This document shows, in pieces, positions 27,001 to 58,082 of a stretch of 64,000 nucleotides of DNA. The notes beneath the pieces are model-generated. The model was not told the origin of the DNA. It ran no database searches and saw nothing but the letters and a program-made list of their open reading frames with translations. The translations under genes and the position numbers were made by a program. Source of the DNA: Salminus brasiliensis (lineage: Eukaryota > Chordata > Actinopteri > Characiformes > Bryconidae); the NCBI RefSeq assembly GCF_030463535.1, contig NC_132879.1:39524597-39588596 (forward strand). The letters are read 5' to 3'. Numbering within the stretch: position 1 is the stretch's first letter; every line of letters begins with the position of its first letter.

Positions 27001-29665
27001 CCACATACAGCATGTTCATACAGAGATCATTTGCAAAATAATGTTCTCTTCAGCAGTCATTGCTGGTTAAGATCAATGCAACAGTAACAGCAACATATGT
27101 GCAGAAAAGCTGACAAATAAAGCAAATGCTTATAGCATAGGTGTTTATGGTTGAAATTAAGAAAGATATGATATGGTTCAGATATGATACAGACCAACAA
27201 GAACTATGGGACCAAGAAGCTTGTGAGGCGCCGGCCTGTATTTGTGTCATCGGTAGATGCGCAAACAATCAAAACAAGGTAAGAAGATTGAAGATGTTTT
27301 GACATTTAAAAGAGAATTTTGACAATAAAGTGATGTAAGTCCCTTTAGCCCAAAGTGAATCAAACTGGTAAACACTGGAAATGTGTCGTTCTTGTTCTCA
27401 GCAAGAGGCAGATCAGTTTTAAAACTCTACCAAGCCACTGGGATAAGGCACTGACACCTGAGACTGGCTACAAGGTGTGTTTGTGTTAAGCACATCAGCA
27501 AAAATGGTTTATATCTCAGTTTTGTTCATTTGCTTCTTTTTTTATATAGTCTTTCGTTTGAGCATTAAGTTTTACGTAAATAAAGTAACACTTTTCTAAG
27601 CTACTGTGCCTTCATTAACTTAACTACTACTACTACTAAGTAGTACTACTAAACTCATTAATTTCCTGTTTTTACACAGAGAGTGCAGCTGCAGAGCACT
27701 TCTGTAGAATACAAGGAGATCCAGAACATGTTCAGTGCCACCTTGCATGGTTTTACCATTCTCCAGATAGAGAGAATTCAAAACAAAGCCCTGTGGGAAG
27801 TTTTTCAGTGGTATGTTTCCATGCTCTCTGTTGCAGTACATGTTACTGTGCTGTGAGAATGCTGACAAATCACAGCTGTATTACACACAAGTGTATTTCT
27901 GGGTGTTTCGATGAGGTTATTTGAGTACTCCAACAAAAGTCAACTATTTTGGTTCAAATCCTGTTCACCAGTGTGAAAGTTATTTCAGTAGAAATTGTGC
28001 TCATTCTATTGTGGTGCATTTGGTTTGGGTTGTCCTTACAGGCAGAAAGATGTTATGAAGAAAAACAATGCGGGGAGAAATGTTGGAGAGAGAAAATTGT
28101 TTCATGGAACAGATCCCAAGCACATAGATGCCATCTGCCTAAATAACTTTGACTGGAGAATCTGTGGAACACATGGCACAGCCTATGGGAAAGGTTTGCC
28201 AAAATATATTTATATAGTTATATATATTTATATAATGTACTTAACCTTTTACAGATTTAATAGTAACAGTGACGTTTTTATAGTCAATTACAGCATGTGC
28301 TGTGCAACTGATTACATTGTTTACATCTGTTATATGTAATATAGAGTGATACACTGGTAGTAAGAGATAATAGATAGGTATATTATTGGGGACTAAATGT
28401 ATGTTTTATGTGTTGATGTGCAGTAAATTTAGATCTCATCTCATGACACATTTTAGTAAAAATGTAAATGGAACCCATGCAAACTGATGCAGATTTAATC
28501 TAGACATAAAGCACATCATAATGCAAAGTGTGAACAGCTTCTTCATTTTTCAGATGTTTGTAAAGTTGGAACAGCATTGTGACATTGTGCTTTGACTATT
28601 CATGTTGTTGAAATTGGAGCCTGAAAAATTGGTCAGAAATTTCTGGTCAATATTGACGGTCCATGGTGATTGGATTTTGAAGAGAAATAGGCTGATAATG
28701 CATAACTATTAACAGTCTGTTTGGTTGTGCCATTAACAGGATTTAAATACCCCATGTTACAGCAAGAGAGATTCATTAGGCAGTTGTTCCACCTGGGATG
28801 TATATATACTTGTGGTGGGATGTTTACATGGACTCATAATGGACATGAATGCTGTATTTATGCTTCATTCTATCTTTATTTCCTTTTAATACATTCATTC
28901 TGCCCCAGAAAATAACAATTCAAAGCAATCACTGAAAGCTTGATATTGCAATGACATTCATGTCCATGATGAGTGTATATAAACGTCTGATTACAACTGT
29001 ACATTGTATACTGCAGTTTTAAAATGTTGCCCAATACATTCTAAACCAAGATCAACATTTCTCTTACCTCAGGAAGTTATTTCGCCAAGGATGCAAAGTA
29101 CTCCCACAGCTACACTGGAGACTCCACAGTTCGAAACATGTTTGTCTGTCAGATTCTGGTGGGAGACTACACTGTCGGCAACTCCAGCTATGTCCGGCCT
29201 CCTTCCAAAGATGGAGGAGATACCGTCTTCTATGACAGCTGTGTGAATGATATCCGTAACCCATCCATATTTGTAGTGTTTGAGAAGCATCAGATCTATC
29301 CGGAGTATCTGATTCAGTACAGAGAGGCACATACATCTTACTCTAGTTCACCAACTTACCATTACCCTGCTGCAGTTAACAGAGCATCTTATACTCAAAC
29401 AGCTCGGCCATCTGCAGCTGCAACAACAGCTACTTCTGTCTGGCCCACAACTGCACCAGCGTCTACATACCAGTACACAACTGCAGCAACATCTACATAC
29501 AAGCCCACCCCCACACCAAGATCTGTACATCAGACCACACCTGCAGCAACATATACACCTAAGACCACAGCAGCATCAATGTCATATTATGCACCCACAT
29601 ATGCATCTACCAGACCTTCTACCCCAAATCGTTCCAAATCAGAGTCGTCCTGCATTATCTGCTGA
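15498..29665 (+). CDS. parp12: PARP12-like mono-ADP-ribosyltransferase, gene A
   Basis: Twelve exons: 15498-15787, 17340-17475, 22390-22768, 24661-24711, 24857-24983, 25514-25679, 26591-26711, 27182-27278, 27402-27474, 27680-27810, 28042-28193 and 29073-29665, joining in frame to ~771 residues (human PARP12 is about 700). Residues 1-65 resemble the N-terminal domain of ZAP/PARP12. Five CCCH fingers follow (about 68-110, 143-190 and 274-292), then a WWE region (about 295-435) and a PARP catalytic domain (about 540-660). His545, Tyr577 and Ile640 form the H-Y-I triad of mono-ADP-ribosyltransferases; ZAP itself has lost this triad. The family binds RNA through its fingers, poly-ADP-ribose through WWE, and acts in antiviral and stress responses. 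The Thr/Pro/Ala/Tyr-rich tail ends in CIIC, a possible prenylation box. Odd points are a shortened fourth finger and a weak GTTTGC donor after exon 11. The start is the first ATG and aligns with B and C. Confidence 0.9.
18455..19468 (+). CDS. Tc1-like transposase, DD37E type, apparently intact
   Basis: An unbroken 337-residue frame. The N-terminus has a helix-turn-helix DNA-binding region (about residues 6-50: [16 protein letters not shown] then [17 protein letters not shown]). The catalytic core has WTDE (first Asp), QDNAPSH (second Asp) and PIENLW (Glu). I count 37 residues between the second Asp and the Glu, so it is DD37E rather than the usual Tc1 DD34E. Transposases of this group cut and paste DNA at TA sites in the nucleus. 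The reading frame, inverted repeats and TA duplication are all preserved, so the source element was active recently. This copy is interrupted downstream of the ORF, so its own 3' end is displaced. Confidence 0.9.
   Translation: MGQKRDLTDSEKSKIVRCLAEGCSSLEIAKLLKRDRQTIKRLMANSQQGRKKCVGKKSCKISAHELRKIKCEAAKMPFATSFAIFQSCNVTGVSKSTRCAILRDMAKVRKAEKRPPLNKKHKIKCQDWAKKYLKTDFSKVLWTDEMRVTLDGPDGWARGWISKGKRAPLRLRRQQGGGGVLVWAGIIKDELVGPFRVEDGVKLNSQTYCQFLEDTFFKQWYRKKSVSFKKNMIFMQDNAPSHASKYSTAWLASKGLIEETMMTWPPCLPDLNPIENLWSLIKCEIYREEKQYTSLSVWEAVVSAARNVDRKQIKQLTVSMDGRLLSVIVKKGGYIGH
19570..21658 (+). mobile_element. Degenerate Tc1-like element nested in the DD37E element
   Basis: Inverted ends CAGTGGGGAAAAAAGTATTTA and the complementary TTCCCCACTG are flanked by TA on both sides. 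Fragments of transposase are readable on the + strand ([21 protein letters not shown] near 20200, [11 protein letters not shown] near 20740), but frameshifts break the frame. It is itself interrupted by an L2-like fragment at 20842-21353. Confidence 0.85.
20842..21353 (+). mobile_element. 5'-truncated LINE (L2-like) 3' end
   Basis: A short 3' fragment ends in a GACTTGACTT-type tail after AATGACAATAAAACCC, as in fish L2-like non-LTR elements. Both sides carry the 7-base target duplication ACCAGCA (20835-20841 and 21354-21360). It contains a (TC)n run at about 21024-21052. Assignment to the L2 clade is from recollection. Confidence 0.7.
22390..22768 (+). CDS. parp12: Gene A exon 3: zinc fingers 3 and 4
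   Basis: Encodes residues 143-268. Finger 3 (C-x12-C-x5-C-x3-H) is intact. Finger 4 reads [15 protein letters not shown], giving C-x7-C-x1-C-x3-H; genes B and C have C-x7-C-x5-C-x3-H at the same place. The four-residue loss may weaken zinc binding in this finger. The rest is a low-complexity Asn/Gln/Ser-rich linker. Confidence 0.88.
23757..23860 (-). repeat. Common teleost interspersed repeat, fragment
   Basis: The segment around GGAAAGGATCCCCTTTGG through TTCTTGCCACTGTCACC is the reverse complement of a repeat I recognise as widespread in otophysan genomes. A forward relative lies at 39478-39640. It is in intron 3 of gene A. Confidence 0.5.
26145..26560 (+). mobile_element. Possible Tc1-like or MITE remnant in intron 6 of gene A
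   Basis: TACTGTGCGAAAGTCTTGGGCA at about 26152 (here given in part) resembles a Tc1-type terminal repeat. No transposase frame and no clear opposite end were found. Confidence 0.35.
29073..29665 (+). CDS. parp12: Gene A exon 12: catalytic C-terminus, Thr/Pro tail and CaaX box
   Basis: Encodes residues 575-771. [12 protein letters not shown] holds the catalytic Tyr and NPSIFVVF holds the third triad residue, Ile. From about residue 660 the tail is rich in Thr, Pro, Ala, Ser and Tyr with loose repeats such as [14 protein letters not shown] and TYTPKTT. The last four residues are CIIC before TGA, which fits C-a-a-X with X = Cys. Confidence 0.9.
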
Positions 29666-30001
29666 AGCTGTAGCAGAAATAGGCTGTCTTAAATGTTAAC
29701 TATTTTAATTGCACAAAGATTTACACTGTGTAGCACTTTAGCTGAACATTGTGACGTTATTATGATGACATTTAAATCTTGATGCAGTTAACATGAGTTT
29801 TTCATGTACTGTATGCCACTGTTGTTATACTGCTTTATAAACAGGACACTCAGGTTTCTATGCAGGACTTTATTATAATATATTATTGAATACATATTAT
29901 AGATCATGGGGGTCTTATTATTCAAAGTAAGAATTGTGTACCTGAACTTGTGATCCACAGCTTTCCACATCAAGGATAATAAAAAAAATTGTTGAAAATT
30001 A

Positions 30002-30007
30002 AATAAA
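30002..30007 (+). promoter_or_regulatory. Polyadenylation signal of gene A
   Basis: AATAAA 337 bases after the stop codon, in an AT-rich 3' region. Confidence 0.55.
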
Positions 30008-30329
30008 TGTTTTTTGTGATCAATTTCACAAATTCATTTTCACATTAAATATTAATACCATATTCATTATTTTGCATGCTTATAATCACTTGTGAATCTT
30101 CTATACACACACAACACCTTATGCAGTATACTCATCTTGAAGATGCTGTGTGCCAGACACCATACCCTTCAGAACCGATCATGCATGTCACCGCTGGAAA
30201 CTGTAAAGGAAAATATTTATTACAAATCCTTTGTAACATTTCTATGGGTCCATTCATCATTTTTGCCACAATGTAAAAAAAGCAACTGGAAGATGAAGAA
30301 AGTCAAAAATTGAAAAAAATAATTACAAT

Positions 30330-32221
30330 TGTCACGCCCGCGCTGCCGCGCCCGCCCCAGGGGCGGTCTTGGGCCGCGGCTCACAGGCGATCAAGAACTC
30401 CTCCTTCAAAGTCATGTCATGTTTAGTTATGCTCTGGACTTTTATGTTGAAAAGGACTCTTGTGTTGACACCCATCGTCGCCATCTTGGTTTTAGGTTGT
30501 GTTTGTCATGTGTCTGTTCATCGTTTGGTTAATGTGTTACACCTGTGGGTGTGTATCTGGTGTATTTAAGTAGGGCTAGTGTCAGCTGCCGGTAGCTGAG
30601 AATTACTCTTAGTAAATCCAATGCACTCAGGCTACTCAGCTAATCTTGGGTACTCAGGGTTCACCGGTCTAGTCTGTAAGTCCGTCTGTATCTAGAGGAC
30701 TCTTCTGGCCGTAGCTAGTTGAGCATAGCAAGCTAACTAGCTAGGCAGTATTATTCTCAGGGTCTGTTTGGGGGCTACTGCAGGTCTGCGGCGATCTCGC
30801 CAGGCTTCACGGGTTTAGCGTGCTCAGGTTCTGGAGCTCCGGTAGTGAGCAACTCGTACGCTCGATTTGGCAAGTAGCTTCCCCTCCGTCGGACCGGTTC
30901 GGTCGTCTAGGTTTGGCGGCTGACTCCCCACTTCCATGAGTCGTGTAAGTTCAGCGCGCCTGACTAGCGCACCTCTTTTGTCTCAGTTAAGAGTTTTTCC
31001 CAGGCTCTGCTTGGTGGTTTATGTTTCCGTATAGCGGTTCAGGCTCAGCCCCGGCAGCTAGCACAGCCCTAGTGCCTCGCCAGCCCCAGGTGTGTTCTTT
31101 TGTTTTGCCCCTCTTGGTTGTCACGGTTGTTTATGTTCCTCTTTGCCCCACGTAATTCTTGCTGCTTTTTCTATTCTGTCCCACAATAAACTTCTCGCTT
31201 TGGTCCATCCCCTGCGAGTGTTCACCCATTCTTGTCAGACCGTGTGGATCATGACAGAATTCTCAGCCGAATACCCCCGAACAGCGGGGATGGTTGTCAG
31301 AGATCTGGCTGCTCGCGCCCAAGGACAAGTCTTGGGGCAGTAGCACCACTCTCTACAGAGTTTCTGAGGCCGTTGGTCGCCTGAGGCAGCATCAGGCGTA
31401 CCAACGGCAGCTAGTCGCCCAACTAGTGGGTGACACCAAGAGGCTCACGAAGCCAGTGGTTTCTCCCAGCCAAGTCACTAGTCCGTATCTGATGGACATT
31501 TCGGATACGTATTCAGGCGATCCAGAGCTTTGCGAGGGGTTCTTGTTTCAGTGCTCGGTGTATTTATGTAGTCGAGGAACCAGCACTGACCAGGCAATGG
31601 TCACCTTTCTTTCTCGCTGGAGAAGCTCTGGATTGGGCCATGACCACCTGGGAAGAGCTTAGCGTGGAGCCCTTCTCGGAGTACCTGAAGCACTTCAAGG
31701 CGGTGTTTCAGCGTCATCGAGGGGGGCCTCACGTCGGGCGACCTGTTGCTGTGACTGGAGCAGGGCAGCAGGTCGGTGGCCCACTATGTGCTGGAGTTCC
31801 GCTCCTTGGCTGCGCGTAGTGAGTGGAGTCACGCTGTGCTTGCTGCCCAGTTCCGCAACGGGCTTGCCCCCCGTTTGCAGCAGGAGTTGGCGTGCCGAGG
31901 TGAGTCGCTTGAGCTGGATGAGCTCATAATGCTCGCCATCAGGCTCGACCAGCTCCCAGGTCGTCCTACCCCACCATGTCACAGCCAAAGTCACAGAGAG
32001 CTGGGGGTTTAGCTGCCGGGCCTGGAAGGCAGACCGGTCCGGTTACGCAGCGTCGAGGTGGGTTTACGGGTCCAGAGTCGTCTGCGGTACCTGTCAGCGA
32101 GCCCATGGAGGTGGGCGTGTGCCACCTCAAGCCGACGTCTGCTCCCGAGGTTGTTTCTGTTCCTCTGGCCCATCCCCTGCGAGTGTTCACCCGTTCTTGT
32201 CAGACCGTGTGGATCATGACA
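30330..32221 (+). mobile_element. Internally deleted Ty3/gypsy-type LTR retrotransposon
   Basis: A full 5' LTR (30330-31256, TGTCACGCCC to GATCATGACA) is followed by gag-like sequence and only the last ~55 bases of the 3' LTR (to 32221). A 5-base target duplication ACAAT flanks it (30325-30329 and 32222-32226). pol is missing, so the element is non-autonomous. It fills most of the space between genes A and B. Confidence 0.9.
31294..32012 (+). pseudogene. Broken gag fragment of the LTR retrotransposon
   Basis: Two frames carry Ty3/gypsy gag-like text: SGDPELCEGFLFQCSVYL near 31515 and HYVLEFRSLAARSEW then LDELIMLAIRLDQLPGR near 31780-31960. The frame shifts between them, so no intact Gag can be made. 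Confidence 0.75.
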
Positions 32222-32226
32222 ACAAT

Positions 32227-32960
32227 ATGCAGTTGCATATGTATATCAAATTATAAACAAAATCGAAGACCTTTTTAACAGATTTAATGAACTTGTTTAA
32301 CTTACTCATTTAACTAGGATAAAATGCATTTGATTTTTCAATCCTTGAAAAGCCCCATGCCAAACACCCCATACGCCTTTTCCGAACGTTTTTGTTCTCT
32401 CTGTGACAAGTAGGAAACTAATGCCCTCATTCATACCATACATTGTATATTAAATATATAAACTTTTTTACATAAATATTGATTTGAAGAAATAAAAAAA
32501 TGAGAATTTATAGAAAACTGATACAGTCGACGTACCTATGTAATGGTGTGACTTAGTTTGACACAGTAATAACTCATGACTTTCTGTGAGCATGACCGAA
32601 GTGCCACGATATTAAAACTTATCTAGATATGAAAAGTAAACTACATATTCCTAAATCTTATCTACATATTCAGATGCTTAAAAGGTTCATTGTCTGATTA
32701 AAGCGTTCTTTGGTTGATAATAGAACAATGATGCGTGAGCCATTTTCAATGCTTTCCAGTATTTAGTTACCATCAAATACGTAGGTTATTTAGAGTTCTC
32801 AACACGTGGAAATCACATGACTGCAATCACATTTTTACTAATGTACTATTTTGTATAATGTAACTAGTTTTACGTAATTTACCGGATAACTACAACCTGA
32901 ACAACGTTTTAGCCGAGGGAAATGGGGAGTTCCCGATTATTTGGCAACCGCTTTAAAATC
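32227..32960. other. AT-rich intergenic DNA upstream of gene B
   Basis: No gene or recognisable repeat seen. It leads into the gene B promoter. Confidence 0.5.
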
Positions 32961-32970
32961 ACTCGCTAAG

Positions 32971-32980
32971 TTTCGTTTTC
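32971..32980 (+). promoter_or_regulatory. ISRE of gene B
   Basis: AGTTTCGTTTTCCC fits the full ISRE consensus (AGTTTCNNTTTCNC). It ends 104 bases before the first ATG. The ten-base core is identical to that in front of gene A, in the same orientation. Confidence 0.75.
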
Positions 32981-33083
32981 CCTCTAAACGCTGCTTCATG
33001 ATTGGCGAAAGGCGCGCGCGTGAGTGTGTGTGTTTCTAACCAAAACCCAACTCCCAAATTGTCGTGAACATCGGTAGAAGGTT

Positions 33084-33371
33084 ATGATGGCTTTGGAGGC
33101 AGTTCTTAAATCAGTGTGTGACAACAGCGGGGCAGTGGAGTATGAGCGCCTTCTGGACATCAGCATACCAGGAACAGACAGGGAGGAATTCGACACTGTG
33201 GTCGGGAACAGCGACTACTTCACTGTTATTCAGCGAAACAACGCCAAACACGTTGTTCTGCGAACCAGTCTTAAGCTCTGCAGTCCAAATGAGTGTGACA
33301 AAACCTGCAAAGACTTACACTTGTGCAGATTTGACCTCCTGGGAGAGTGTAGAAGGTAGGTGTACTGTCTG

Positions 33372-33451
<80 letters not shown>

Positions 33452-34227
33452 GACATTTTACCTCAAGGTTGTCCCAGACACACCTATCCTTACTAGCTAG
33501 CCATATTAGGTTATGTCCTAAAAGCTTGACATTTTTTGCTTGACAAACAGACGAAGATGCAACTACGGACACAGCCTGGACACAGAGCACAACTCTGGAG
33601 TCTTACGTGAACGCAACTTGAATGGACTCAACAAATGCCAACTGCGCATTCTCCTGCTGCAGAGTGATCGCTCTCTGCTTCCGCATGTAAGATAAACATG
33701 ACACTGCGTATTAAACTGGCCTACTGTAGTCATGTGCACTAGAGAGCTTTTTTTTATCAAAGCCTACATGCCATAGGAGAGCAAGAATCAGCGTATAATA
33801 CAATACTTACCTTCAGATCACACGTCTCATGTAAGTTACTTAATCCTTGGCAACATAACACAGCTGCCAATTTATTAGGTTCTTTGTACTTAAACTTCTT
33901 GGTCACTCTATCAGGTACAACTACCAGTACTGGAAACTGGGTCCACCATAAGATGACCACTGACCAAATTCTCAGAATACCTGCAACGTTTACATTGTAG
34001 TAGAAGTAGGGGGCATACAAGTGTATGGCCTCCCTCAAATGATCTGGTCAGTGGTGGTCCTGCGGTGGTCATTTTCCATTGAAGGACAGGGCTGAGTGTG
34101 ATTAACAGCAATTGATGGACTAGTAATTCTAAACCTGTGAAGTACAGCTACGTGATAGTTATAATTAATAATGTATGCAGTGTTTGTAGGTAGAAGGTGG
34201 GTGTAGCTAAGAATAACCTCTAATGTA

Positions 34228-34285
<58 letters not shown>

Positions 34286-37200
34286 TTATCATACAGACTT
34301 ATTCCAACAAGCGTCAGTTGTTAACTTTTAATTGGTGAGGTTAGTTGTTATCAGCATTGACAAAATCAGCCACTATAATGACTTATGATTGGCTAAATAA
34401 GAAAAAATAAAACAAGGCACTCTTCTTTCCAAAAACTTTATTGTTTAAACAGAAAAGTTTAAAACAAGGACAAGGAGACCGACTAATAATGGCCTACAGC
34501 CTGGATGTCCGTTTCTTTCTCTCATCCCTTTCCAAAGGGCACCTTTGTTATTATTTTCTGTTGGAACTTATACATATGCTGATTTAGGTTCATCAGTTGT
34601 CATATACATTGTATATCGGTGTCATGTTGCTTTAGAAATCCTGCCCTTAAATAAATTTTTACCTTCTGCTGTAACTGGTTAGACAGTTATTTTAAAATTT
34701 GTCCTATAGGGGGTGACACATACTGCCCAAAATAAGTGGCACCTCTAATGACGAAGCTGCATACCTTTACTATATTTAGTGAAGTATAAATAAGTAACAT
34801 AATCTGTATTGAAGGTGGACAGTTTCTACAATTGTATTGCAATTTCTCATTAGGTAACAATTTACTTATTTACAATCTTTACTTACTGACCACAGGTGTG
34901 TGTCTCATATAACAAAGGCAATAGTGCATATGGGAACTGTCCTGATAAAGAGGCCTGTGTTAGACTCCATTTGTGTGAGAACTACATCAGAGGAACCTGT
35001 GACGGCAGCGCTGAGTGCAATCGATGCCACGACTTCTATGAGCCTCATCCAGTGAAAACCCTCATGGCCAAAGGAGTTCCAAGTCAGCTGATAGGATCGC
35101 TTTTGTTGATCTATCAAAACATTTTGGCTCTAAAGGATTGCAGTTATGCCAGGGGTGAAACTGGTGCCAAAAGAAAAGTGGACACTAAGTTCAGCAACAA
35201 GGGCAGAGTGCCTGAGTCCTTACAGAAGAAAGCAGGTAACTACTCATTACCTAAGCTGCTTTCATTAGGCTTTAGGCATTAACATGTTGTTCGACCAAGA
35301 TATTTTTATCTTTTTTTACTCTATACACATTGTACATTTAAACATGAATACTATTCCTAAATAAGCAGATTATTGTTACTCTAAGTAAAGCCATAACACT
35401 TTGTGCTTTGCCTCTCTGTTCTTTTATTACAGATAATGTGATTTGCCTCTCCTTTGTTAAAGGATTCTGCAAATATGGAGGTATATTTATCTAAATAATT
35501 ACTGAACACACATCAGCAAAACGCTGTGTCTGAACTTTGTTTATTTACCTTGGTGGTAACTGATATCAATAATACTATTATTCACCTGTTATCACGTTAT
35601 CATTCGGTTCAGTTGGTTTGACATTGCAATTTCTAAAGTACACCAAATAATGCACACCCGTGTTTGGGTGTTCTTTGACTGGCATAGATCTGTTACATGT
35701 ATATATATTTATTCGGGTTCTACATTCTGTGATCTGTTTGACAATGTTAAATGTCTGCTGTTATTAGCATCAACTCGAGCTGAAGGATGCTAGAAGCATC
35801 TGTACAGGAGTCAAATACCAGCCAAGTTTAAGTACAGTGATGGCATACACAGAGAAAATTATGCTCTGATGTTGAATTTCCTTGTTTTATTCTAATTGAC
35901 ATATGGTGCAGGCCTTGGTTTTTGCAATGCTTACATTAAAGTGTTGTCCGTTTTTGGTATGTTTTGATTAAAGCAACATTTGGTAGCCTTTTTTCCTTAA
36001 AATAGGAGCTTCCAAATTATGTTGATGCTCCGCTTATCCGCAATAGGGTGAATAGCGTCTTTGTCGTTGCTATTGTGAGCTCAGCATGCTACTAACCACA
36101 CTATGGGGCAGTGGTGGCTCAGCGGTTAGAGCGCCAGGCTATCAATAACAGGGTTGTGGGTTCGATTCCTGGGCTCGGCAAACTGCCACTGTTGGGCCCT
36201 TGAGCAAGGCCCCTCACCCTCTCTGCTCCCCGGGCGCTGGAGTTGGCTGCCCATTGCTCTGGGTGTGTGTGTACTTGCTGCCCCTAGTTCACTAGTGTGT
36301 GTGTTTGTTCACTACCACAGATGGGTTAAATGCGGACACATTTTGCTGTACATAGTACAATAACAAATACGTGCACCTTTACCTTTATGTAACTTTAGTA
36401 AAGCAGGCAGGACCATGCTCGCTAGAACTGCGTAATGCTGTGTAACCAGACTCATATTTGTGTAAAATCCTGTAATATTACAGTGTCAGTCAACATTCAT
36501 CTTTCACTACAGATGCCGGTGTCTGTATCTGTCCAGAAATGCATGTCCATAAGAGGTGTCTCAAAGCGCAAATTACACTGCTGGGGGAGCCCAGGAGCAA
36601 GAAATGACAATTTTCGCACAAGTCTGCTTTAATTTTTAATTAGTGCCTGCCTTACACTTGCTGGCCAGAGTACTGTAATTAAACCTAGCTATTTACTCAT
36701 TATGGGGCAGTGGGGGCTCAGCGGTTAGAGCGCCGGGATATCGATAACAGGGTTGTGGGTTCGATTCCCGGGCTCTGCAAGCTGCCACTGTTGGGCCCTT
36801 GAGCAAGGCCCTTTACCCTCTCTGCTCCCCGGGCGCTGGAGTTGGCTGCCCACCGCTCTGGGTGTGTGTGTACTCACTGCCCCTAACACGTGTGTGTGTG
36901 TGTGTGTGTGAGTGTGTGTTCACTACCAGATGGGTTAAATGCGGAGGACACATTTCGCTGTACAGTGTACACTGTGCAGTGACAAATACGTGCACCTTTT
37001 GATGCCTACGTAACATGCCCCGAGCTAATTATTATTATTATTATTATTTCAGATAAATGTTGGCGAGTCCACTTTGATATGCCCTACAAATGGGAGGTGA
37101 AAGTGGACCACATGTGGATGAACTTACTAGACAACGAGGCAATAGAGCGAGATTACTGCGACCCAGCTAAGATGCACAGGTGGGTACACACTAAACACCT

Positions 37201-40200
37201 GGGTTCAGTGTGAGAAAGCACCTGTGCCTTTAAAATTGTTTAAAAGTTTTAAAAGTACCTGAAACAAAAAAGGTATTACATTAGCAGACAATTATTTATG
37301 TTTATTGAAACAAATGTGCAGACATTTTCACTAACCCTCTTTCTTGGTAGTGAGGGGACAGAGCCTGTGTGCTTTGACACAATGTTCCAGGGGCTTCACA
37401 GAGTGCGGCGTCTCTCTACAGAGTCTTCGGTGCTTGAACCTACCTTTGTCCTCACCACAAAGTGGCACTGGTACTGGGAGAATGTGTACAGGAATTGGAT
37501 ACAGTATGCGTCAATTGTAAGTTAGAAACCAGTAAAGCCCTCCTGATAATTTTTTTATCCACTGTATTCTTTGTTTTTAAATTCACACTGCATTCCCCTC
37601 TTTTCCAATCACAGAAGGAGATGCACAGATTGTCCTCCATCACCAGCGATGAGCTTGAGCAAAAATATCTACAATTTCTGAAAGACGATAACAATGCTGT
37701 GGCCACATTTACCACTGACAAGCAGTTTTACGAGCTGAATTTTAGAGGTATGATATCCAATTTGTATCACTGACTGTTTTTATTTGTATTTGTGATTTAT
37801 TTTACCCCTGTTTTTATTCCTTAAATCCCATTTTCAGTGTCATTGAATCTATCCTTGGTTTATTTGCAGAAGATCTTGTGAAGCACTTTGAGCTACATTT
37901 TGATGTATGAAGGAAACTACTACTTCTAGGACCCTCTATTATATATACTACTATTGCTACTACTACTAATAATAATAATAATAATATTGATAATAATAAT
38001 AATCATCATTTTAATTATACAAATAATAATTAAGGTGGTTTAAAGTTAAAAATGTGTTGTTTGTTTTTGTTTTTTTGTTTTTTTTTGTTTTGTTTTTTTT
38101 ACATTTTCCTAGTTTGACCCTTCAAACTGTCTGCAGTAGATTGTGTAGCTGTATACTGCTATGGTATAATCCGCAATTGTAGCCTACTCTTTCAAATACA
38201 ACTTTTAATAATTTTTCTTTCTCAAAAAGAATAAAGCATGGGTGTTCTTTAATATATACATACATACATTGAACAAATTAAAATTATTATGTGACTTTTT
38301 TATCAAAGACATGAAGCAGAGAAATGAAATGAGTGGCACAGAGAGAATGGTCAGACGACGGCCACAGTTTCTTTCCTCCTTGGATGTCCAAAGAGCCAGA
38401 ACTAGGTAAAAGAATCCACAAACCATAGTCATTATACCATGCATTACTTATGTGACACTTAACTGTTCACTGTTAACTTTTTAAAGAAATAACAATGTAA
38501 AAGAACACTGCTTCTGACTATGAAGTAACTTTTTTTTTTTACTTTTTCCTTTAGTAGAAGAGGTGCACAGTCCAGCTCTTATAAAGGTGTCCCTGGCTTT
38601 TGGGACAAGACTGCAACTCCAGCCTCTGGATTTCAGGTATAGCATCTAGTTAGTGTTCCAAGCCTATTTTTCATTCTTACCCACCTGTTTCATAGCCTTA
38701 ATTTTGAATTTTACATATCTGCTCTCCTCCATGCGATTACAGAGGGTCTTCCTTAGTCCTTCTGACAAGGATTATGCCAGAGTGCACGTACATTTTCACA
38801 AGACCATGAAGAACTTTAGCATCCTGAAAATCGAAAGAGTCCAGAACAAGAAACTGTGGGAAGATTTTCAGACGTGAGTACCAGATATCAGCACCATTAA
38901 ATTCAAGACTGAACTGACAGAGCAGCTGTTGGACAAGCCTTAGAAATATTTAAATGTAATGATAGTCAAGGGAGAAATGTGTTACAAAACACAGTGCAAT
39001 GCACCTGCTGTGTATGGGCTGCATAGTTGCAAACCTCTCATAGTGCCCACGCTGACCCCTGTCCACCTGCCAAAGAGCCTACAATGGACGAGCAAGGGTC
39101 GAAACACCTTGGACCTTGGAGCAATGTAAGGTCACATGGACGTTCGGGTACAAAAAGTCCAATTTGCAGCAGCACCACCTTCCAGTTTTGTGGACTTGGG
39201 GGATCTGCTGCCAACATCTTGGCGCCAGATACCACAAGGCTGTTAGAGTAAGCTGTTGGCTCTGTTGCCAACAGAATAATAGGCAGATAGTGTATATTTT
39301 CTGGGTCAGTAGCATCCTGCAGAAGGTTTTCTTTCATCAGTGTAAAAACTGAAGTTTTACTTTTGACCGACAGCAGTGTCAAGGACTTCTGGTGTTGGTG
39401 TAGTTATGACCTGGAGTGTTAAACACCCCAAAATGAAGAATACTAGTGTGTTCTTTTTTCAACTCATTCGTTCATATTAAGTCAAGTCAAGTCGAATAGC
39501 GCTTTTTACAACTGTTGTCGTCACAAAGCAGCTTTACATAATTAGTACTTAATAAAGGACAGAGACAGAGAAGAAAGAAGAAATAACATGAAGGATCAAA
39601 GACCCCCGTGAGCAAGCCAACTGCGACATTCACGGCTCCAAAAGTGTTAATTCACCACTGCTGCCTTTTGTTTATAGAAAAAGAGAGCAAATGAAAAAAG
39701 TGAAAAAGGACAAGAAATATGCTGAGGGGGAGCGGTTTTTATTTCATGGCACCAGATCCATGCTCATTGATGATATATGCCTCCAGAACTTTGACATGAA
39801 AGTATCCGGAGCCAATGGGACAGTGTACGGGCAAGGTAAGACAGTAAATGTGCTATTTAATCCAAAATGTCTCTTGGATTAGTAGTTTAACAAATTTATA
39901 TGCTCATACATTTTTCCTTCTGATTTCTTGCAGGAAGTTACTTTGCAAAGGATGCAAAATACTCCCATGATCACACTGATAATTTGGACAGGAGATTTAT
40001 GTTCATGTGCAGGGTACTGGTTGGGCAGTACACTAGAGGTGCGTCCCATTACAGCTGCCCCCCAGCTAAAGATTCCACAGGCACTCTTTATGACAGCTGT
40101 GTGAATGACGTCCGAGAGCCCACCATTTATGTTGTGTTCAATAAAACCCAAGTCTACCCAGAGTTCCTGATCACATACGAAGAGAACAAATACCCACAGT

Positions 40201-41021
40201 CTGTAGTAAATTCTTTCCAGCATAGCGTAGGTACTCTTGCTCAAAGTTTAGCTCAGTCAGCAGTAACAGATATCACCCCAACCTCTACACCCACAGCCCT
40301 TGCAGTTACCAGCCAAACATCTGATGTCTCTGAATCTCAGAACCAAACAGCAGAAACTAAAGCTTCACCTAAGACCAGCTTACCAGGTTACACCAATCAG
40401 TTGGAGAATGCTAAAATTCAGACAGCATCTGGGTCATCTTGCAGCTCTGACGTGATTCAGGATTCATGGAAACCAGTAACTCTCAGCAGCCTAGACTCAG
40501 ATTTTTCTGATTTGGAAACTAATGTTTTGTATTCATTTATTACACTAAGCTCTCCAACTAACACAAACACGGTTCCCTTTAATCATTCCCTCCCAAGTTC
40601 CTCAGCAATGTCCAGAAATGTCAAAAATTATTTGTCAGGGAACACTCTTCACTCAGACAGGACAAAAATACAAATAGCAACTCTGTCATCTTATGCTTCT
40701 GACATTACTGAGCCAACAACTCTGAATGTCCTTCAAGATTCTCAACAATCAGTGCATCTTAGCAGCTCCCCAGAGGTGTCATATTTGCAGAAAGATATTT
40801 TGGATGAATTTACAGTTGAACAAAGATTTTCAACCCAAACCAAACCTGCTGTCTTCGACCAGTCTCCTGCCTCCTCTTTCTTAGCAAAGGAGAGTAGTTC
40901 CCCTTCAGCTCATAAACAGTCTTGCTCTCATTGTTCCTTCTTAGACTCCTCAGACATTGTTCGCCAGTCTCCACCCCAAACACCCCAAGAAAAGCCAAAA
41001 TCAGACTGTACTGTGCAATGA
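33084..41021 (+). CDS. parp12: PARP12-like mono-ADP-ribosyltransferase with long tail, gene B
   Basis: Twelve exons: 33084-33355, 33551-33686, 34896-35235, 35433-35480, 37053-37179, 37351-37516, 37615-37747, 38309-38405, 38555-38636, 38743-38873, 39678-39835 and 39934-41021, giving ~925 residues. The N-terminal domain and five CCCH fingers all keep their Cys and His residues. WWE and catalytic domains follow, with His534, Tyr566 and Ile628 (H-Y-I). The catalytic domain is more diverged than in A and C: VYGQGSYFA replaces AYGKGSYFA, and NKTQVYPEFLITY replaces EKHQ-type sequence. After residue ~643 a Ser/Thr-rich tail of about 280 residues contains an internal repeat and ends in CTVQ, a possible CaaX box. 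A second ATG at 33087 has a better context (A at -3, G at +4); either start changes one residue only. Role is inferred from the family: RNA-binding, interferon-linked ADP-ribosylation. Confidence 0.88.
33375..33444. repeat. (TA)n(GA)n compound microsatellite
   Basis: About 15 TA units run directly into about 19 GA units inside the short first intron of gene B. Confidence 0.95.
34229..34283. repeat. (TA)n microsatellite
   Basis: About 27 TA units in intron 2 of gene B. Confidence 0.95.
34896..35235 (+). CDS. parp12: Gene B exon 3: zinc fingers 3 and 4
   Basis: Encodes VCVSYNKGNSAYGNCPDKEA and then [11 protein letters not shown] with C-x7-C-x5-C-x3-H spacing. Much of the exon is nearly the same as exon 3 of gene C, in DNA as well as protein, while the catalytic domains of B and C are far less alike. 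Confidence 0.88.
36105..36387 (+). mobile_element. tRNA-derived SINE, copy 2
   Basis: Box A and box B words as in copy 1, a variable GT-rich middle and the GTGCACCTTTACCTTT end. It lies in intron 4 of gene B. Confidence 0.85.
36704..37000 (+). mobile_element. tRNA-derived SINE, copy 3
   Basis: Same structure and orientation as copy 2, starting about 600 bases downstream in the same intron. Its right end lies only about 50 bases before exon 5 of gene B. Confidence 0.85.
39030..39330 (+). mobile_element. Tc1-like relic in intron 10 of gene B
   Basis: GATCTGCTGCCAACATCTTG and GGCGCCAGATACCACAAGG match the 3' coding part of a fish Tc1-type transposase as I recall it. No open frame survives. Confidence 0.55.
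39478..39640 (+). repeat. Common teleost interspersed repeat
   Basis: GTCAAGTCAAGTCGAATAGC followed by CACAAAGCAGCTTTACATAA and GTGAGCAAGCCAACTGCGAC. Related in reverse to 23757-23860. It lies in intron 10 of gene B, 40 bases before exon 11. Confidence 0.55.
39934..41021 (+). CDS. parp12: Gene B exon 12: catalytic C-terminus and repeat-bearing tail
   Basis: A single 1088-base exon. The first ~80 residues complete the PARP fold ([20 protein letters not shown]). The remaining ~280 residues are Ser/Thr/Gln-rich and probably disordered. Two related blocks start at AKIQTASGSSCSSDV (about residue 723) and TKIQIATLSSYASDI (about 807). Each runs on to a DS..PV/SV-LSS-S motif and an acidic hydrophobic end (LETNVLYSF and LQKDILDEF). 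A Cys-His cluster (SCSHCSF) lies near the end. The last residues are CTVQ. Confidence 0.88.
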
Positions 41022-48540: not shown

Positions 48541-49030
48541 GCAGTGACTGAGACCCTCAGCTAGCTTAATTTTTATGCGGATTTTTTTCAAACAAATTAA
48601 ATCTTTTTACTGTGTACTTATATATTATTGACTAAGTTTAAATACGTTCACTTTTTGACATTTGATCTCACACCAACCTGACTGTAAGGGAAAGGGTGGG
48701 GAGGGAAGGGTTTACTAGGTAAAATTTCCCATTGGTTTAAGGTAGCACAGATAAATTTAACAGAACATAATTAATTTTACATAATAAATGTGCGTCTTGT
48801 CAGACCCATTTATTTTCTGTTAACCCATTGTCCATTTGAGGTGGGAATATAGCAGTGATTAGTGATTTGTGTGATTTGCCCTACCTTAAGCTGCCACCAT
48901 TTTCACAGGACTACTCCCTGGGGGCAAAGTAACATGTACACCCAGCAAGAGCAGTACAAGTGAAATGGGACACAGCCCTAGTTTTGTATGTCAGCATTTC
49001 ACTCAGTTACAAAAAATAGGCTACACAGAG
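48541..49030. other. Upstream region of gene C
   Basis: AT-rich with a G-rich patch at 48687-48712. No TATA box or ISRE with full consensus was found here. Confidence 0.45.
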
Positions 49031-49037
49031 ACAGAGG

Positions 49038-49047
49038 CAAAACGAAA
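49038..49047 (-). promoter_or_regulatory. Weak ISRE/IRF-like site of gene C
   Basis: CAAAACGAAA is one base from GAAANNGAAA and contains the IRF core AANNGAAA. On the minus strand it reads TTTCGTTTTG, nine of ten bases equal to the A and B sites. It lies 11 bases before the chosen ATG, so it would be in the 5' UTR or at the start site. Confidence 0.4.
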
Positions 49048-49057
49048 CTTAGCAGTC

Positions 49058-52000
49058 ATGCAAACCGCAGCTCTGGTTAATCGACTTTTATGTACCCACG
49101 ATGGGCGAATGGAACTTGAGGACTTGTATGGGCAACTATCTGGACTGGCATTAAAGGATGAAGTAGAAAATTTACTTAAAGACACAGACATGTTTGTGAC
49201 CACGGGTGAAGAAAACGAAGTGGTGGTTGCCAAAACCAGGCTGAGGCTGTGTAGAGCCAGGGAGTGTCAAGGCTGCAGCCACCTCCACCTGTGTAAAATG
49301 TACCTGTTGGGAGACTGTCCTTATGGTAAAGGAAGGTAAGGCAGTTTCATTTGCCAGGCATGTTTATGTCTATCATAGCCATATCCATGTTTAAACAAAG
49401 AGTAATAGAGTAAGAAAATGTTTGGCAACATTGGTAGAAATCAATATTCTCCCAAACAGGCGAGGGTGCCGCTTCTGCCATGATCTTTACACAGGACATA
49501 ATGTCAGTGTGCGACGCCAACACAATCTGCTGGAACTGGATCGCAGCGAGCTGTGTGTTATACTTCTTCAAAATGACAACAGCCTATTGCCTCAAGTAAG
49601 ACTCTTCTTTAATGTACTATTTCTATGTGGATAACCTGCAACCAAATCAGATTTCACCAACGTCTAGTAAAATGATTGTTGCTATATTGTTGCTATTAAC
49701 TTTGTAGTTATATACTGACTGTATATGCAATATTTATCAGCAATGCTCTACCACCTTTAAACAGCCTGGCAGCACACACCTGGACATGGTAGAGCCATTA
49801 TAGAATCAGGTCTGCCAATTTGGGCAACTCCTGGCAAGGGGGCTGATGCCTTCCTCTTATTAAATTCTTAGTGTTTTTTTTGTTTTTTTCTCAGTTTACA
49901 GTTCACAAGTCCAACAGTGCCAACAGGCCTATTTGGGAAGGCCACAAACTCATGTGCTGTTTAGCAATTGATCCTGAATAATAAATGAGTTGAACCATAC
50001 GATGGTCTCCAAACAACCTTGAGACAAGGAGAATTTCCTGATCAATTAAGTCAATAATTAGAAGACTGTATCTTCTAAACAGAAGGGCTAATTAATGGGC
50101 TATTGCTTTATGGTTGACTTTGCTCAGGGATTTGGCCTCAGAGTAAACAGACAGTTACACTGTACAATGTAATTCTCACTTTGCTACTTTTCCACTAACA
50201 CACTACTATTAAGACATAAGTATAAAAAAAAAAAAAAAAAGAAAGCAATACATAAGTAAAAATAAATAAATAAATAACTATATAGACACTAAAGGCAAAA
50301 CTGAACTAGAGGCAAAATATATGTAAAAAAAGAACTACAGACATATAAAGAGGTAGACATCAATAATTAAACTTATAAAAATGGCATAAAAGCCTAGTTA
50401 TAACATGCACTGTGCACTATTGCAAATAGTAGTAAGACATCAGTGAATGGACGAGTTTACATTTAGTTGAGTAAAGTTAAATAACTATATTTTTGTGTGT
50501 TGGCAGGAGGTTAATCAGCTAGAGTGATAGGAAAAGCGGCAGTGTTTTGATGGGGTCGTTCACACCTAAAGCCACACCTGATGGCCTGTGGGTAGAAACT
50601 GTTTGTGAGACTTGTTGGACTTCACAAGCCTGTAATGTTTGCTTGATGGTAAAAGTGTAAAGAGGCTTGTTTAGGGTGGCAATCTCATCCACCTTGACGG
50701 GTGGAGCTATGTTGACAGACATTTTGATGCTCTGATGCCAATGAAATCTATCCGAGGTGTTTTATAACCTAGGTAGCCACTTAAAGGCCAGAGTACACCA
50801 ACCAAACATATGTAAACAAGCATGAGTAAACACAGGTACCTGGTTGCCGTGCCATGCTTATGTTTGTGTTAGATACTAGGACATTCTCTCTCAATTCCCT
50901 TTTTAATCTGTCTTGTCTGTGTAATTGGGTGTTATCGGTGAGTGTGTTCCAGATGCGTTACAGCATTAATCTTTGAGTAGGGTAGCACAAAAAGTATGCA
51001 AGCCTGTGGCAAACATAAGTGCCGTTACTTTAAAAGTCTTTATTCCCTATAAATAGTGTTTTTAACATGATGTGGAAGGGGTTTAGAACACTATGATTCT
51101 GTTTACACTTGCCATTAAAATGAATCCACAGTGTGACCAGTTGATTTTCCTTTCTCGCATAAAAAAAGAAAACCAATCATTTCCCTTTTAAAACAAAATC
51201 CACGGTAATTTTCTCATATTAATGTTTTTGTCATATTAATTGTTTACCGCTTGCCTGACGGAATCCCAACACACCTCCAAATGTGGTTTCAGTGATCAAA
51301 TCATAATACGATTACACCTGGCTTTTCATGTAGACAGGTGAAATTCAAACATGATTCCACCACCATCTTAATGCCAGGTGTAAACAAAACACCAAAGCAT
51401 CTGATGAATAAAGTTTATGCTTATAGTTTACAGCAAATTGACCCGGCCATGTACGTACGCAAATGATTTGTTGGACTACTGTTTTTTAGTGTTTTAGTGT
51501 TTTTTTACAGTTTTAGCTTTGTAGAAGTTGCACTATACCAAAACACTGTACCTAAGATTACAGGAAAAATGCTGTATATTTAAATTTGAATAAATTGTCT
51601 CTGAGATTACAGACTGACCAGTTGTAGAGCTGTACTGAAAATGACATTAGTAACCAATGGCACAATGTGCACTCAGGTGTGTTTTACATATAACAAAGGC
51701 AGCGGTGATTATGGGCACTGTCCTGATAAAGAGGCTTGTAGAAGACTTCATGTCTGTGAGAACTACATCAGAGGAACCTGTGATGGCAGCACTGGATGCA
51801 GCCGATGCCACGACCTCTACGAGCCTCATCCAATGAAAACCCTCCAGGCCAAAGGAGTTCCTAGCCAGCTGATGGGATCTGTGCTGACAGCATACAAGAA
51901 TATACTTTCAATCTGGGATTCTAATAGAGCTAAGAGCATGAGCACTCCAATCAACACATCAGGTATTATATGCAATAATTAATCAGTGTTATAGTCTAAG

Positions 52001-55000
52001 ATGTTGAGGTCATATACTATCAAATAATAATGATGATAATGATGGTAATAATGATAATAAGCACAGCACAGGGGTTGGGTCCCAAAGAACCAGGTTCTTG
52101 CCAGGTTTTGTTATTTTCCTGAAAAAGCACACCAAATTAAAGTTTCCCATGAATTGAGAAGTTTTGTATGTTAATGCAACCCTCATTTAACACATCACAT
52201 TTTCTGTTGGTTTTATATTACAGAGAAATCAGAGATATGCCCGTTCCACCTCAAAGGATTCTGCAAACAAGGAAGTAAGTTGTGCTTCTCATTGACTATA
52301 ACAGCATTTTTGTAATAGACACAGAGTCATTTTTAATCCTGCTATTGTTCATGTTTTTTGTTTTTTTACAGACAGATGTCGGCAGGTTCATTTCTATTTG
52401 CCTTATAAGTGGGAAGGCAGAGAAAGACACGGTTGGAAGGTTCTGCCAGATAATGAAGAGATAGAACGAGCATTCTGTGACCCTACTAAGAAATACAGGT
52501 GTTTACTGCAAAGCTTTTTATTCTACATAACATATTACAGCTACAATCAAAAGCATTCACCAAGTTCAACACAAAATGACACTAGTAATGACTACTGCAG
52601 TCTTAGAATTATTCAATCCCTCCTAAGAGCACACATTTGCAAAGCAGGTAGCAAATCAGGGGCTTCATTTGCATCAGGTGTGCTTATGACTAAACAAATA
52701 CAAGTAACTTGGACTGGCTAGGGATTTGTTGACTGACATTTGAGTGCATGGTAGATATGTTACGAGAGTTGTCTAGAAAGTGCGGAGAAATAATTGTTGC
52801 CTTGCACAAACAAGGAAAAGGATGCAAAAAGAGAGCAAAGCACTAAAATGTTCCTAGAGTTAGAGTTGGAGTAGCTGTTGGAGGCCCACTAAACGCTGAA
52901 GGTCTCCATGCCTATACACCTCTCCTGACCCAAAAGCACAAGAAAAGTCAGCTCCAATCTGCTCAAAACCAAATGAGTAAGCTTTGCTCTGTGGAGCGAT
53001 GGAACAAATGGATCAGCTGTATGTCTGAAGGAGGAAGAATAAAGCATACCCTGAAAAGAACATCCTGCTTACAGTGAAGAATGGCTGTGTTTCTAGGGCT
53101 GCTTTGCTTCTTCTGGAACTGGAAACCTTCAGCATGTGGAGGGCAGGATTGATTCAATGATGTATCAGGCAAAAAAAAAATGGGACAGAAATTATACATT
53201 AGACATGATGAATTAAAACTGATGAAAGATTGCAATTCCAGTTTCTTCTAAAGTCAAAACCTCTCTTGTTTTGTGCATTCTCAGTGATGGTACCGCACAG
53301 GTATACTTTGACACTATGACTCAAGGTTTCACAGAAGTCCGTCGTCTCTCCACTTTTTCGTCAGTGCTTAATCCCACCTTCATCCTCACCACCACTTGGA
53401 TCTGGTACTGGGAGGATGAGAATGGGAACTGGATCAAGTATGGATCATCTGTAAGTGTCACTCCAGAGAACTTTTAAAATACAAAATTTGCGTAGAGCAG
53501 ATGTAGTGTCACTCACTGACAATTACAATTCTAAAAGATGCCAAAGAAACTGGATGTTATTAATTCATGTAGATCCAAAATGCCATTACTTATATTTATG
53601 TTCTTTTATTGCTACTAGAATGGGGCACACCATTCATCTTCCATTAGCAGTGAGGACCTGGAAAGGAAATACCAAGAAGATAGCAGCGCTACGATCGAGT
53701 TCACAGCAGGCCAACATTTTTATGAGCTCAACATGCAAGGTTGGCTAAATAGTCTTTTGTTGTTGTTTTACCTGCTACATTTATCAGAACATGCTGTACA
53801 CTGCATTTTAGGAATTTTAGACTTGGTAAGAACTCTTCTTGGTAAGAAGAATGTATGTATGTATGTTGACGAATGTATCAGACGAATGTATATGAATATG
53901 TTGACGAATGTATCAGAAGAATGTATATGATGACCAGATTGAAGATAATGTTTCTTTTACATTTTCTAGATTTCAACAACTTGGTTTTATGTTACTTTTC
54001 CAGAAATGATTCAGTCTAACAAAAACATTGGCACTAAAAGGCTGGTAAGGAGGAGACCTTTGTTTCTCACAGCAGAAGATGCACAAAGGATCAAAACAAG
54101 GTACACAAATCCAACAAAGGTTTATTTAAACACATATTGCATATGTCAGCTTACTGAAACTGTACTGTAAAACCTCACTGACAGTATCTGAAAGGGAATC
54201 CTTTAAATATATAAACGTGCATTCATTTAAGTCAACAAAATGCATTTTGAAGTAATAATGTGCATTTACATACTTATTTAATATTCAGGTCATATTAAAT
54301 GTGAATATTGAAAAGTATTTTTTTTCTTAGTCAAAGGGAGTTCAGTGGCCGTTTACAAAATTTGCCTCGTCACTGGGATAAAACCAAAATGCCTGAAACT
54401 GGTTTCCAGGTAAATCAAGCCTTCATTACCAGGGTTTGAAACATTAAGACATTTGATTCAAATGTATAATGAAATGAATATTCAATAGAAAACTAATACA
54501 ATTCATTAAAATGCATTTTGTTGTTTTCTCAGTTCTGCCAAAATTCTTTGTTTTTCCCCAGACAGTTCTAGTATAATATTCCAGCATAATATTCTATCCA
54601 ACAACAGTGTCAAAACGAAGCCTATAAGGCGTCATGAGCTGCGTTTTAATGCATGTTTTTCTTTCCAGAGAGTTCTCCTGAGGAAACCATCTGAGGAGTA
54701 TAAGAAGGTTATTGAGCTCTTTAATCAGACAATGTCAGGATTCAATGTGAAGAGCATTGAGAGGGTGCAGAACCAGGACTTATGGAACGTTTTTCAATGG
54801 TAGATGATGTGGTCTTAAAATCATGGATCCCTTGAAAATGTTGTTACTTTTTCTGTTTCATGACACTGGATTGGTCCGTTTCTGCCTGTTACAATTTTAT
54901 ATAAGCTCATCAAGCTGATGGTGAGCTAAATCATTAGGACAGGAGAGACACTAAACCGTATAGTGCATGAGACAGAATGGGACAAGTCCTATAGCATGAT

Positions 55001-58000: not shown

Positions 58001-58082
58001 TTCCAGACCTCAAGCTAGGTTTCCAAGGGCCAGGCCTGACACTAAGAGCTCTACAGTGAATCATCAGTCTTGGGTGGTCTAG
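49058..58082 (+). CDS. parp12: PARP12-like mono-ADP-ribosyltransferase, gene C
   Basis: Twelve exons: 49058-49335, 49460-49595, 51677-51962, 52224-52274, 52372-52498, 53285-53450, 53619-53739, 54004-54100, 54331-54409, 54669-54799, 55069-55217 and 57403-58082, giving ~766 residues. An upstream in-frame ATG at 48965 would add 31 residues. I prefer 49058 because [20 protein letters not shown] lines up with the starts of A, B and ZAP. All five CCCH fingers are intact (finger 5: C-x7-C-x5-C-x3-H across exons 4-5). WWE text includes [15 protein letters not shown]. His511, Tyr543 and Ile606 form the H-Y-I triad. The catalytic domain is close to gene A ([19 protein letters not shown]). The tail is basic and Ser-rich with a repeated FGS motif, and ends in SWVV with no CaaX box. 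Intron 11 is long and holds a Tc1 relic. Confidence 0.9.
50219..50280. repeat. A-rich and AAAT-type simple repeat
   Basis: A run of about 17 A at 50224-50240 is followed by TAAA/AAAT units, in intron 2 of gene C. Confidence 0.7.
50500..50740. repeat. Probable interspersed repeat remnant
   Basis: GATGGCCTGTGGGTAGAAAC and CCTGTAATGTTTGCTTGATG resemble a repeat common in teleost genomes. Family not identified. In intron 2 of gene C. Confidence 0.4.
51677..51962 (+). CDS. parp12: Gene C exon 3: zinc fingers 3 and 4
   Basis: [20 protein letters not shown] and [20 protein letters not shown] keep all zinc ligands. DNA similarity to gene B exon 3 is high, including silent sites. The linker after the fingers is shorter than in A and B. 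Confidence 0.88.
52740..53180 (+). mobile_element. Decayed Tc1-like transposon in intron 5 of gene C
   Basis: Shares TGACCCAAAAGCACAAGAAAA and the CTGTGGAG...GAACAAATGGA block with the relic at 9160-9720. Heavily broken. Confidence 0.65.
53864..53932 (+). repeat. Two-copy 35-bp tandem repeat
   Basis: TGTTGACGAATGTATCAGA followed by a GAATGTATATGA end occurs twice with a period of 35, in intron 7 of gene C. Confidence 0.8.
55225..56630 (-). mobile_element. Degenerate Tc1-like element in intron 11 of gene C
   Basis: The end at 55233 (GTGGACAAAATTGTTGGTGC) is a Tc1-type terminal repeat. On the minus strand an N-terminal transposase piece is open at 56096-56290 ([20 protein letters not shown]). 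The opposite terminal repeat is lost. A related copy is at 60990-62180. Confidence 0.8.
57403..58082 (+). CDS. parp12: Gene C exon 12: catalytic C-terminus and basic tail
   Basis: Starts with [12 protein letters not shown] and contains [18 protein letters not shown]. The tail from about residue 625 is Pro-rich, then Arg/Ser-rich. Two related stretches, [17 protein letters not shown] and [15 protein letters not shown], about 40 residues apart, look like an internal repeat. Confidence 0.9.

Follow-up and report, generated by a model that had tools for sequence, protein, structure and literature searches.

The proteins against which the genes reported here are best compared are PARP12 and ZAP-L (ZC3HAV1/PARP13), the latter known from mammals and birds. 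ZAP-L ends in a CaaX box (CVIS) that mediates farnesylation, membrane association, and activity; the motif raises the association of ZAP-L with intracellular membranes, and the anchor is needed for full activity, whereas human PARP12 is described as having no CaaX box (Kmiec 2021; here and below, papers are cited for the excerpts available). Human PARP12 is found at the Golgi and MARylates (mono-ADP-ribosylates) golgin-97, Rab14, and viral proteins (PMC12377720), so that membranes are a plausible place for a PARP12-type enzyme that does bear a box. When CAAX was predicted across PARP12/ZAP sequences, it appeared in a few amphibian and in all mammalian, reptile, and bird ZAPs, and the conclusion drawn was that it was gained in tetrapods as the last step of a stepwise ZAP story (MBE 2025). 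Three teleost genes of this kind have been named, PARP12a, PARP12b, and ZC3HDC1L, of which only ZC3HDC1L carries an extra domain behind its PARP-like domain (Gonçalves-Carneiro 2021, PMC8102003). Here we describe a 64,000-nucleotide stretch of the Salminus brasiliensis genome (the window, C2:39524597-39588596, in an assembly of 1.07 Gb in 103 contigs), in which three PARP12-type genes, A, B, and C, lie in tandem and two of them, A and B, end in CaaX-type boxes. Among the matches listed in a search of open-licence PMC papers, no title or abstract opening mentioned a CaaX motif on fish PARP12 or ZC3HDC1L, which is weak evidence of absence.

C-terminal ends of the tandem PARP12-type genes

Read from stop to stop, gene A ends in CIIC and gene B in ...EKPKSD-CTVQ, whereas gene C ends in ...NHQSWVV and has no box; a preliminary description of the locus had placed the same two boxes on A and B and none on C, and the coordinates coincide. 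All three ends lie in the frame of the ADP-ribosyltransferase (ART) domain in the computed models, for which exons were located with tblastn and a script chose the GT/AG junctions between them. Each model has 12 exons and no internal stops, the latter being partly built in, since the script demanded stop-free junctions. The weakest donor in the three genes, that of exon 2 of A (score 4, versus 6 to 8 elsewhere), is far from the C-terminus. The SWVV end of gene C would itself fit what we take to be a class II PDZ-binding end.

The preliminary description had named a different last exon as a threat to its reading, and the anatomy of the genes makes this unlikely. In both A and B, the box shares exon 12 with the last part of the catalytic (ART) domain, and a switch to another last exon would cost the protein part of the enzyme. 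An alternative last exon leading to another C-terminus was considered and set aside on these grounds: a scan of exon 12 for donor-like sites with scores of at least 7 found none in the tails of A, B, or C, and the single site in the three copies of exon 12 was at 40039 of gene B, inside the ART domain, although some donors of the models themselves score 4 to 6.

Matches to Pfam PF25261, PF23466, PF02825, and PF00644 are above cut-off in all three genes, and the domain order, a PARP12-type CCCH tandem, two WWE domains, and a PARP (ART) domain, is that of the PARP12/ZAP family. Searching the genome with the exon-12 peptide of gene A gave 19 matches. The PARP12-type genes among them are A, B, and C, a copy at C2:39.711 Mb (L011/L020/L034, two rows), and the genes L009 and L010, which form a second tandem pair, outside the window, at 5.68 to 5.70 Mb of contig C13. 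The models of both C13 genes lack a start codon, and that of L010 has 11 exons, with one internal exon missing and one weak donor. L009 ends in ...EFIIEYGPEESRCLIS, that is, EYGPEESR-CLIS, with a ten-residue tail after the ART domain; L010 is boxless and stops at the end of the ART domain (...EYIIEYS). The stretch just past the L010 stop resembles by eye the start of the L009 extension (GGTTCAGAG versus GGTCCAGAG). The copy on C2 is counted as broken, because its last exon is interrupted by an in-frame stop and changes frame, and in the frame that continues there is no Cys at position -4. By eye, its tail and gene C share short RRFGSL-like stretches, which have no support at the DNA level. Boxes are thus present in three of the five intact PARP12-type genes (A, B, and L009, but not C or L010), or in three of six when the broken copy is counted.

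The ART domains are closer to PARP12 than to ZAP. In a comparison with PDB structures, for which A and L009 were scored singly, the A domain gave 196 bits against human PARP12 and 103 bits against human ZAP, and the L009 domain gave 190 and 106 bits. All five models retain the catalytic His (LFHGT), where ZAP has LFYAT, so that the loss of this residue in ZAP is found in none of them. The N-terminus of gene A matches the solved RNA-binding domain of ZAP at 106 to 108 bits. At the positions that we take to form the CpG-binding pocket, several residues of A differ by eye from ZAP (F, R, F versus Y, K, Y). From these comparisons, A, B, and C are PARP12-type genes with an ART domain that is probably catalytically active.

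The three genes can be set beside the described proteins. With PARP12 (human, and PARP12a/PARP12b of teleosts) they share the domains, the closest ART sequence, and the catalytic His, but human PARP12 has no CaaX motif, and A, B, and C have long extensions behind the ART domain. With ZAP-L they share a CCCH RNA-binding N-terminus (matched in A), WWE domains, an ART-like domain, and, in A and B, the terminal CaaX; they differ in that the catalytic His is lost in ZAP-L and kept in A and B. The box of ZAP-L follows its PARP domain without a long tail, unlike those of A and B, which stand behind tails of 114 and 280 residues. The L009 gene is the closer ZAP parallel, its CLIS resembling CVIS. In their tails, A, B, and C agree with what is described for ZC3HDC1L, a teleost-only relative of ZAP and PARP12 with an extra region behind the PARP-like domain; the excerpts of PMC8102003 mention no CaaX box for it, and the assignment is by description only.

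The preliminary description had stated that ZAP-L is farnesylated at its CaaX box and that human PARP12 is boxless, and Kmiec 2021 bears out both points. Its further statement, that the mammalian pair includes no PARP12-like enzyme with a ZAP-like anchor, holds as the literature describes that pair, because human PARP12 has no CaaX and ZAP has no catalytic His. Its picture of a ZAP-like anchor on A and B is partly supported: the boxes and the catalytic His agree with it, the long tails do not resemble ZAP-L, and catalysis and endolysosomal targeting are predictions only.

Chance, tail ends, and prenylation

To set the boxes against chance, we used 11,259 six-frame stop contexts from the window and from L009 to L016, of which 480 have Cys at -4. 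The strict pattern C-x-[ILVM]-[MSQACT], which CIIC, CTVQ, and CLIS all fit, is found in 34 of these (0.30%); loosening the a2 set raises the count to 65 (0.58%), and admitting F and L at X as well brings it to 121 (1.07%). Treating the genes as independent, and with a pattern chosen post hoc, the chance that at least two of the three window genes are boxed is 2.7e-5, 1.0e-4, or 3.4e-4 for the strict, looser, and loosest patterns, and that for at least three of the five intact genes is 2.7e-7, 1.9e-6, or 1.2e-5. For comparison, Cys at -4 occurs in 1.7% of database proteins, and the general false-positive rate for farnesylation is given as 0.11% (PrePS paper, PMC1175975). None of the 12 other ART last exons of the same search (L023 to L033 and L035, taken as open-frame ends, unspliced) has Cys at -4; this count is drawn from the 19 exon-12 matches, and ART genes that came up in the Pfam search alone (38 matches in all) fall outside it.

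The boxes might nonetheless be chance ends of fast-drifting, disordered tails, CaaX-like in form, unconserved, and of little consequence, an explanation that we regard as unlikely. It would account for tails that differ in composition as well as in length (114, 280, and 143 residues in A, B, and C), for an A/B similarity that is weak and varies with the number of residues aligned, and for boxless ends on gene C and L010. It does not sit well with boxes on three of the five intact genes when the chance rate is 0.3 to 0.6%, nor with the agreement of all three with the strict pattern and the absence of such ends, 0 of 12, elsewhere among the ART genes counted. The tails themselves are long for random open reading in the window, where runs of at least 114, 143, and 280 codons make up 1.9%, 1.1%, and 0.23%, respectively, although the openness of the A tail alone is weak evidence because a second frame of it is open too. 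An AATAAA starts 313 bases after the stop in A, 139 in B, 34 in C, and 91 in L010.

Likeness among the ends is uneven. Comparisons of the ends of A and C gave a mixed outcome, with no window pair scoring as high at lengths of 18 to 30 and 49 to 55% doing so at 10 to 14 (2.6 to 49% of shuffles); for B and C, a shared origin is not supported. Shuffled ends reach the A/B score in 0.2 to 3.8% of 2000 trials, depending on the length compared, which lends weak support to a shared origin of these two ends.

Whether such ends would be prenylated can be judged from known substrates. CIIC is the C-terminus of yeast Ras1, which is farnesylated (PMC6517510), and is among twelve motifs measured for affinity to farnesyltransferase (FT) or geranylgeranyltransferase-I (GGT1) (PMC1175975). 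CTVQ resembles the prenylated CNIQ of RAP2A (15C), CCVQ of PTP4A2 (15C/20C), and CVVQ of RAP2C (20C), in a list that also includes CRIS of TIMAP (15C) (PMC7674641); CNIQ has been solved in human farnesyltransferase. In a yeast CXXX screen, the limits on sequence were chiefly against D, E, K, and R at a2 and against K, P, and R at X, with Q at X favorable (PMC10320760), and CIIC, CTVQ, and CLIS, each with Cys at -4 and permitted residues at a2 and X, breach none of these rules. The exact motifs CIIC, CTVQ, and CLIS are not named in the excerpts of PMC10320760 and PMC11152559, and a literature search for the boxes as CaaX motifs listed five papers, two of which mention CIIC and none CTVQ or CLIS. 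Our own coding of the PrePS buried-helix rule, applied to the 20 residues that precede the box Cys of A, B, and L009, showed no buried-helix pattern in A or B, and the last 11 residues of this stretch are mostly hydrophilic in both. The earlier expectation that farnesyltransferase would accept both boxes thus agrees with the rules and, for CIIC, with yeast Ras1. The boxes are real and probably functional, and we infer prenylation from their form.

Proposed function and origin of the boxes

With moderate confidence, we interpret the locus as three PARP12-type genes in tandem that match teleost ZC3HDC1L by description and of which the products of A and B would be lipidated at their CaaX boxes and tethered to membranes; the frame, computed exon structure, domains, catalytic His, and boxes are seen in the sequence, and lipid, membrane, catalysis, and antiviral use are all predicted from it. 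In such proteins, CCCH fingers would bind RNA and two WWE domains ADP-ribose, and the mono-ADP-ribosyltransferase domain would be followed by a long flexible tail. Farnesyltransferase, and perhaps geranylgeranyltransferase-I too, would lipidate the box Cys of A and B, after which Rce1 would trim and ICMT methylate the end. The flexible tail would then hold an active ART that binds RNA close to internal membranes, the sites at which positive-strand RNA viruses replicate. Gene C would act untethered, and the C13 copy L009 carries its CLIS soon after the ART domain, much as ZAP-L carries CVIS.

Several observations weigh against this tethering. A CaaX added to human PARP12 gave no activity against HIV-1, and partial activity was gained by a PARP12 chimera with the ZAP RNA-binding domain plus the box (Kmiec 2021). 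The A/B ends are weakly similar, their score being reached by 0.07 to 8.9% of window pairs according to the length compared, and in none of the six pairs of ends does a DNA-level match exceed the best of 60 shuffles (C/L011 ties). Gene B has an acidic residue at -1 to the Cys. The L009 linker is short and contains three buried-helix pattern starts, located in the ART end, and no AATAAA or ATTAAA occurs in the 857 bases after the L009 stop. Two of the five intact genes, C and L010, have no box.

A tree of the five models without their tails groups L009 with L010 (support 1.000), and an ART tree that includes human PARP12 and ZAP has one group of A, B, and C (0.977), with human PARP12 next to it (0.761), and again the pair of L009 and L010 (0.878); the order within A to C differs between the two trees. 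Boxes thus occur in both groups, each of which has a boxless member. Presence of the box in a common ancestor followed by losses, and separate gains, explain this single genome equally well.

It is conceivable, though on present evidence improbable, that CaaX is an old feature of the PARP12/ZAP family that predates the split of fishes and tetrapods and was kept in ZAP and some fish copies and lost elsewhere, including in mammalian PARP12. The CLIS of L009 lies at about the position that we take the ZAP-L box to have, and the early stop of L010, followed by an L009-like stretch, is what would be expected if the extension had been gained or lost by a stop change in one of the two. The C13 pair also lies 247 kb from a KIAA1549-family gene (C13 5.95 Mb), a family that we take to neighbor human ZAP. 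KIAA1549-family matches occur also at C13 0.5 Mb, C2 47.2 Mb, C19 4.5 Mb, and, as one weak match, on C20, and the other synteny markers lie elsewhere (MKRN1_C at C2 51.0 Mb; UBN_AB on C3, C7, and C15; LUC7 on C5, C12, and C15), so that only the 5.95-Mb match beside the C13 pair is suggestive. Against an old origin stand the scores of the L009 ART (190 bits for PARP12 and 106 for ZAP), the report of the box in ZAP only, namely in a few amphibians and in every mammal, bird, and reptile examined (MBE 2025), and the boxless human PARP12 (Kmiec 2021); separate gains would serve as well. That the boxes are prenylated for protein-protein contact or turnover and not for membrane anchoring is very unlikely: the long A and B tails would put the lipid far from the protein body, as this would have it, but the CaaX of ZAP-L raises association with intracellular membranes (Kmiec 2021).

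Beyond the tethering of A and B, we put forward more tentatively that ray-finned fishes may carry prenylated, active PARP12-type antiviral enzymes, one with a ZAP-like CLIS, in which case anchoring would be older than the split of fishes and tetrapods, or would have arisen repeatedly, and would not be an invention of tetrapod ZAP. Boxes on fish PARP12-type genes would mean either an earlier date for the anchor or repeated evolution of the same membrane targeting, and if orthologues confirm them, the sequence of steps published for the ZAP anchor would change. CaaX in tetrapod ZAP is already known (MBE 2025); what would be new is such an anchor in a ray-finned fish, on a PARP12-type enzyme that is probably active. 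Such a natural enzyme, joining mono-ADP-ribosylation to a lipid anchor, would test which of the two, membrane placement or loss of catalysis, was the key step for ZAP.

Feature coordinates and neighboring elements

Table 1. Features of the tandem array (window positions) and of the PARP12-type copies outside the window
Feature	Position	Strand	Basis or remark
Gene A, PARP12/ZC3HDC1L-type, 12 exons, 771 aa	15498..29665	+	Spliced model; Pfam zf-CCCH_PARP12, WWE_4, WWE, PARP
Gene A exon 12: ART end, 114-residue T/A/S/P/Y-rich tail, CaaX	29073..29665	+	Spliced model
Gene A box CIIC	29651..29662	+	Stop-to-stop reading, spliced model; stop 29663-29665
Gene B, PARP12/ZC3HDC1L-type, 12 exons, 898 aa	33084..41021	+	Spliced model; Pfam
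Gene B exon 12: ART end, 280-residue tail, CaaX	39934..41021	+	Spliced model
Gene B box CTVQ	41007..41018	+	Stop-to-stop reading, spliced model; stop 41019-41021
Gene C, PARP12/ZC3HDC1L-type, 12 exons, 797 aa, boxless	48965..58082	+	Spliced model; Pfam
Gene C exon 12: ART end, 143-residue tail ending SWVV	57403..58082	+	Spliced model
Gene C end SWVV	58068-58079		Putative PDZ-binding type; stop 58080-58082
L009 gene, PARP12-type	L009 8860-9143, contig C13 ~5.689 Mb		C-terminus CLIS
L010 gene, PARP12-type	L010 8597-8850, contig C13 ~5.699 Mb		C-terminus EYIIEYS
L011 copy	L011 7700-8540, C2 ~39.711 Mb, ~123 kb downstream of window		In-frame stop and frame change in last exon

Relatives were also sought in viral contigs and genome contigs, where 53 and 61 stretches, respectively, matched a pattern and none was confirmed.

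The window also includes mobile-element-like sequences around the array. A Tc1/mariner-type transposase, with a 345-aa open frame at 18431-19468 and DDE_3 and HTH_38 matches above cut-off, lies in intron 2 of the gene A model. Between A and B, at 31255-31662, there is an open frame that appears gag-like by eye and has no Pfam match. Between B and C there is a direct duplication (43358-45165 and 45950-47756, with a spacing of 2591 to 2592 bases), each copy of which includes a 132-aa open frame that is transposase-like by eye (the first copy, when scanned, had no Pfam match), and two reported 300-base stretches of which are 100% identical between the copies.

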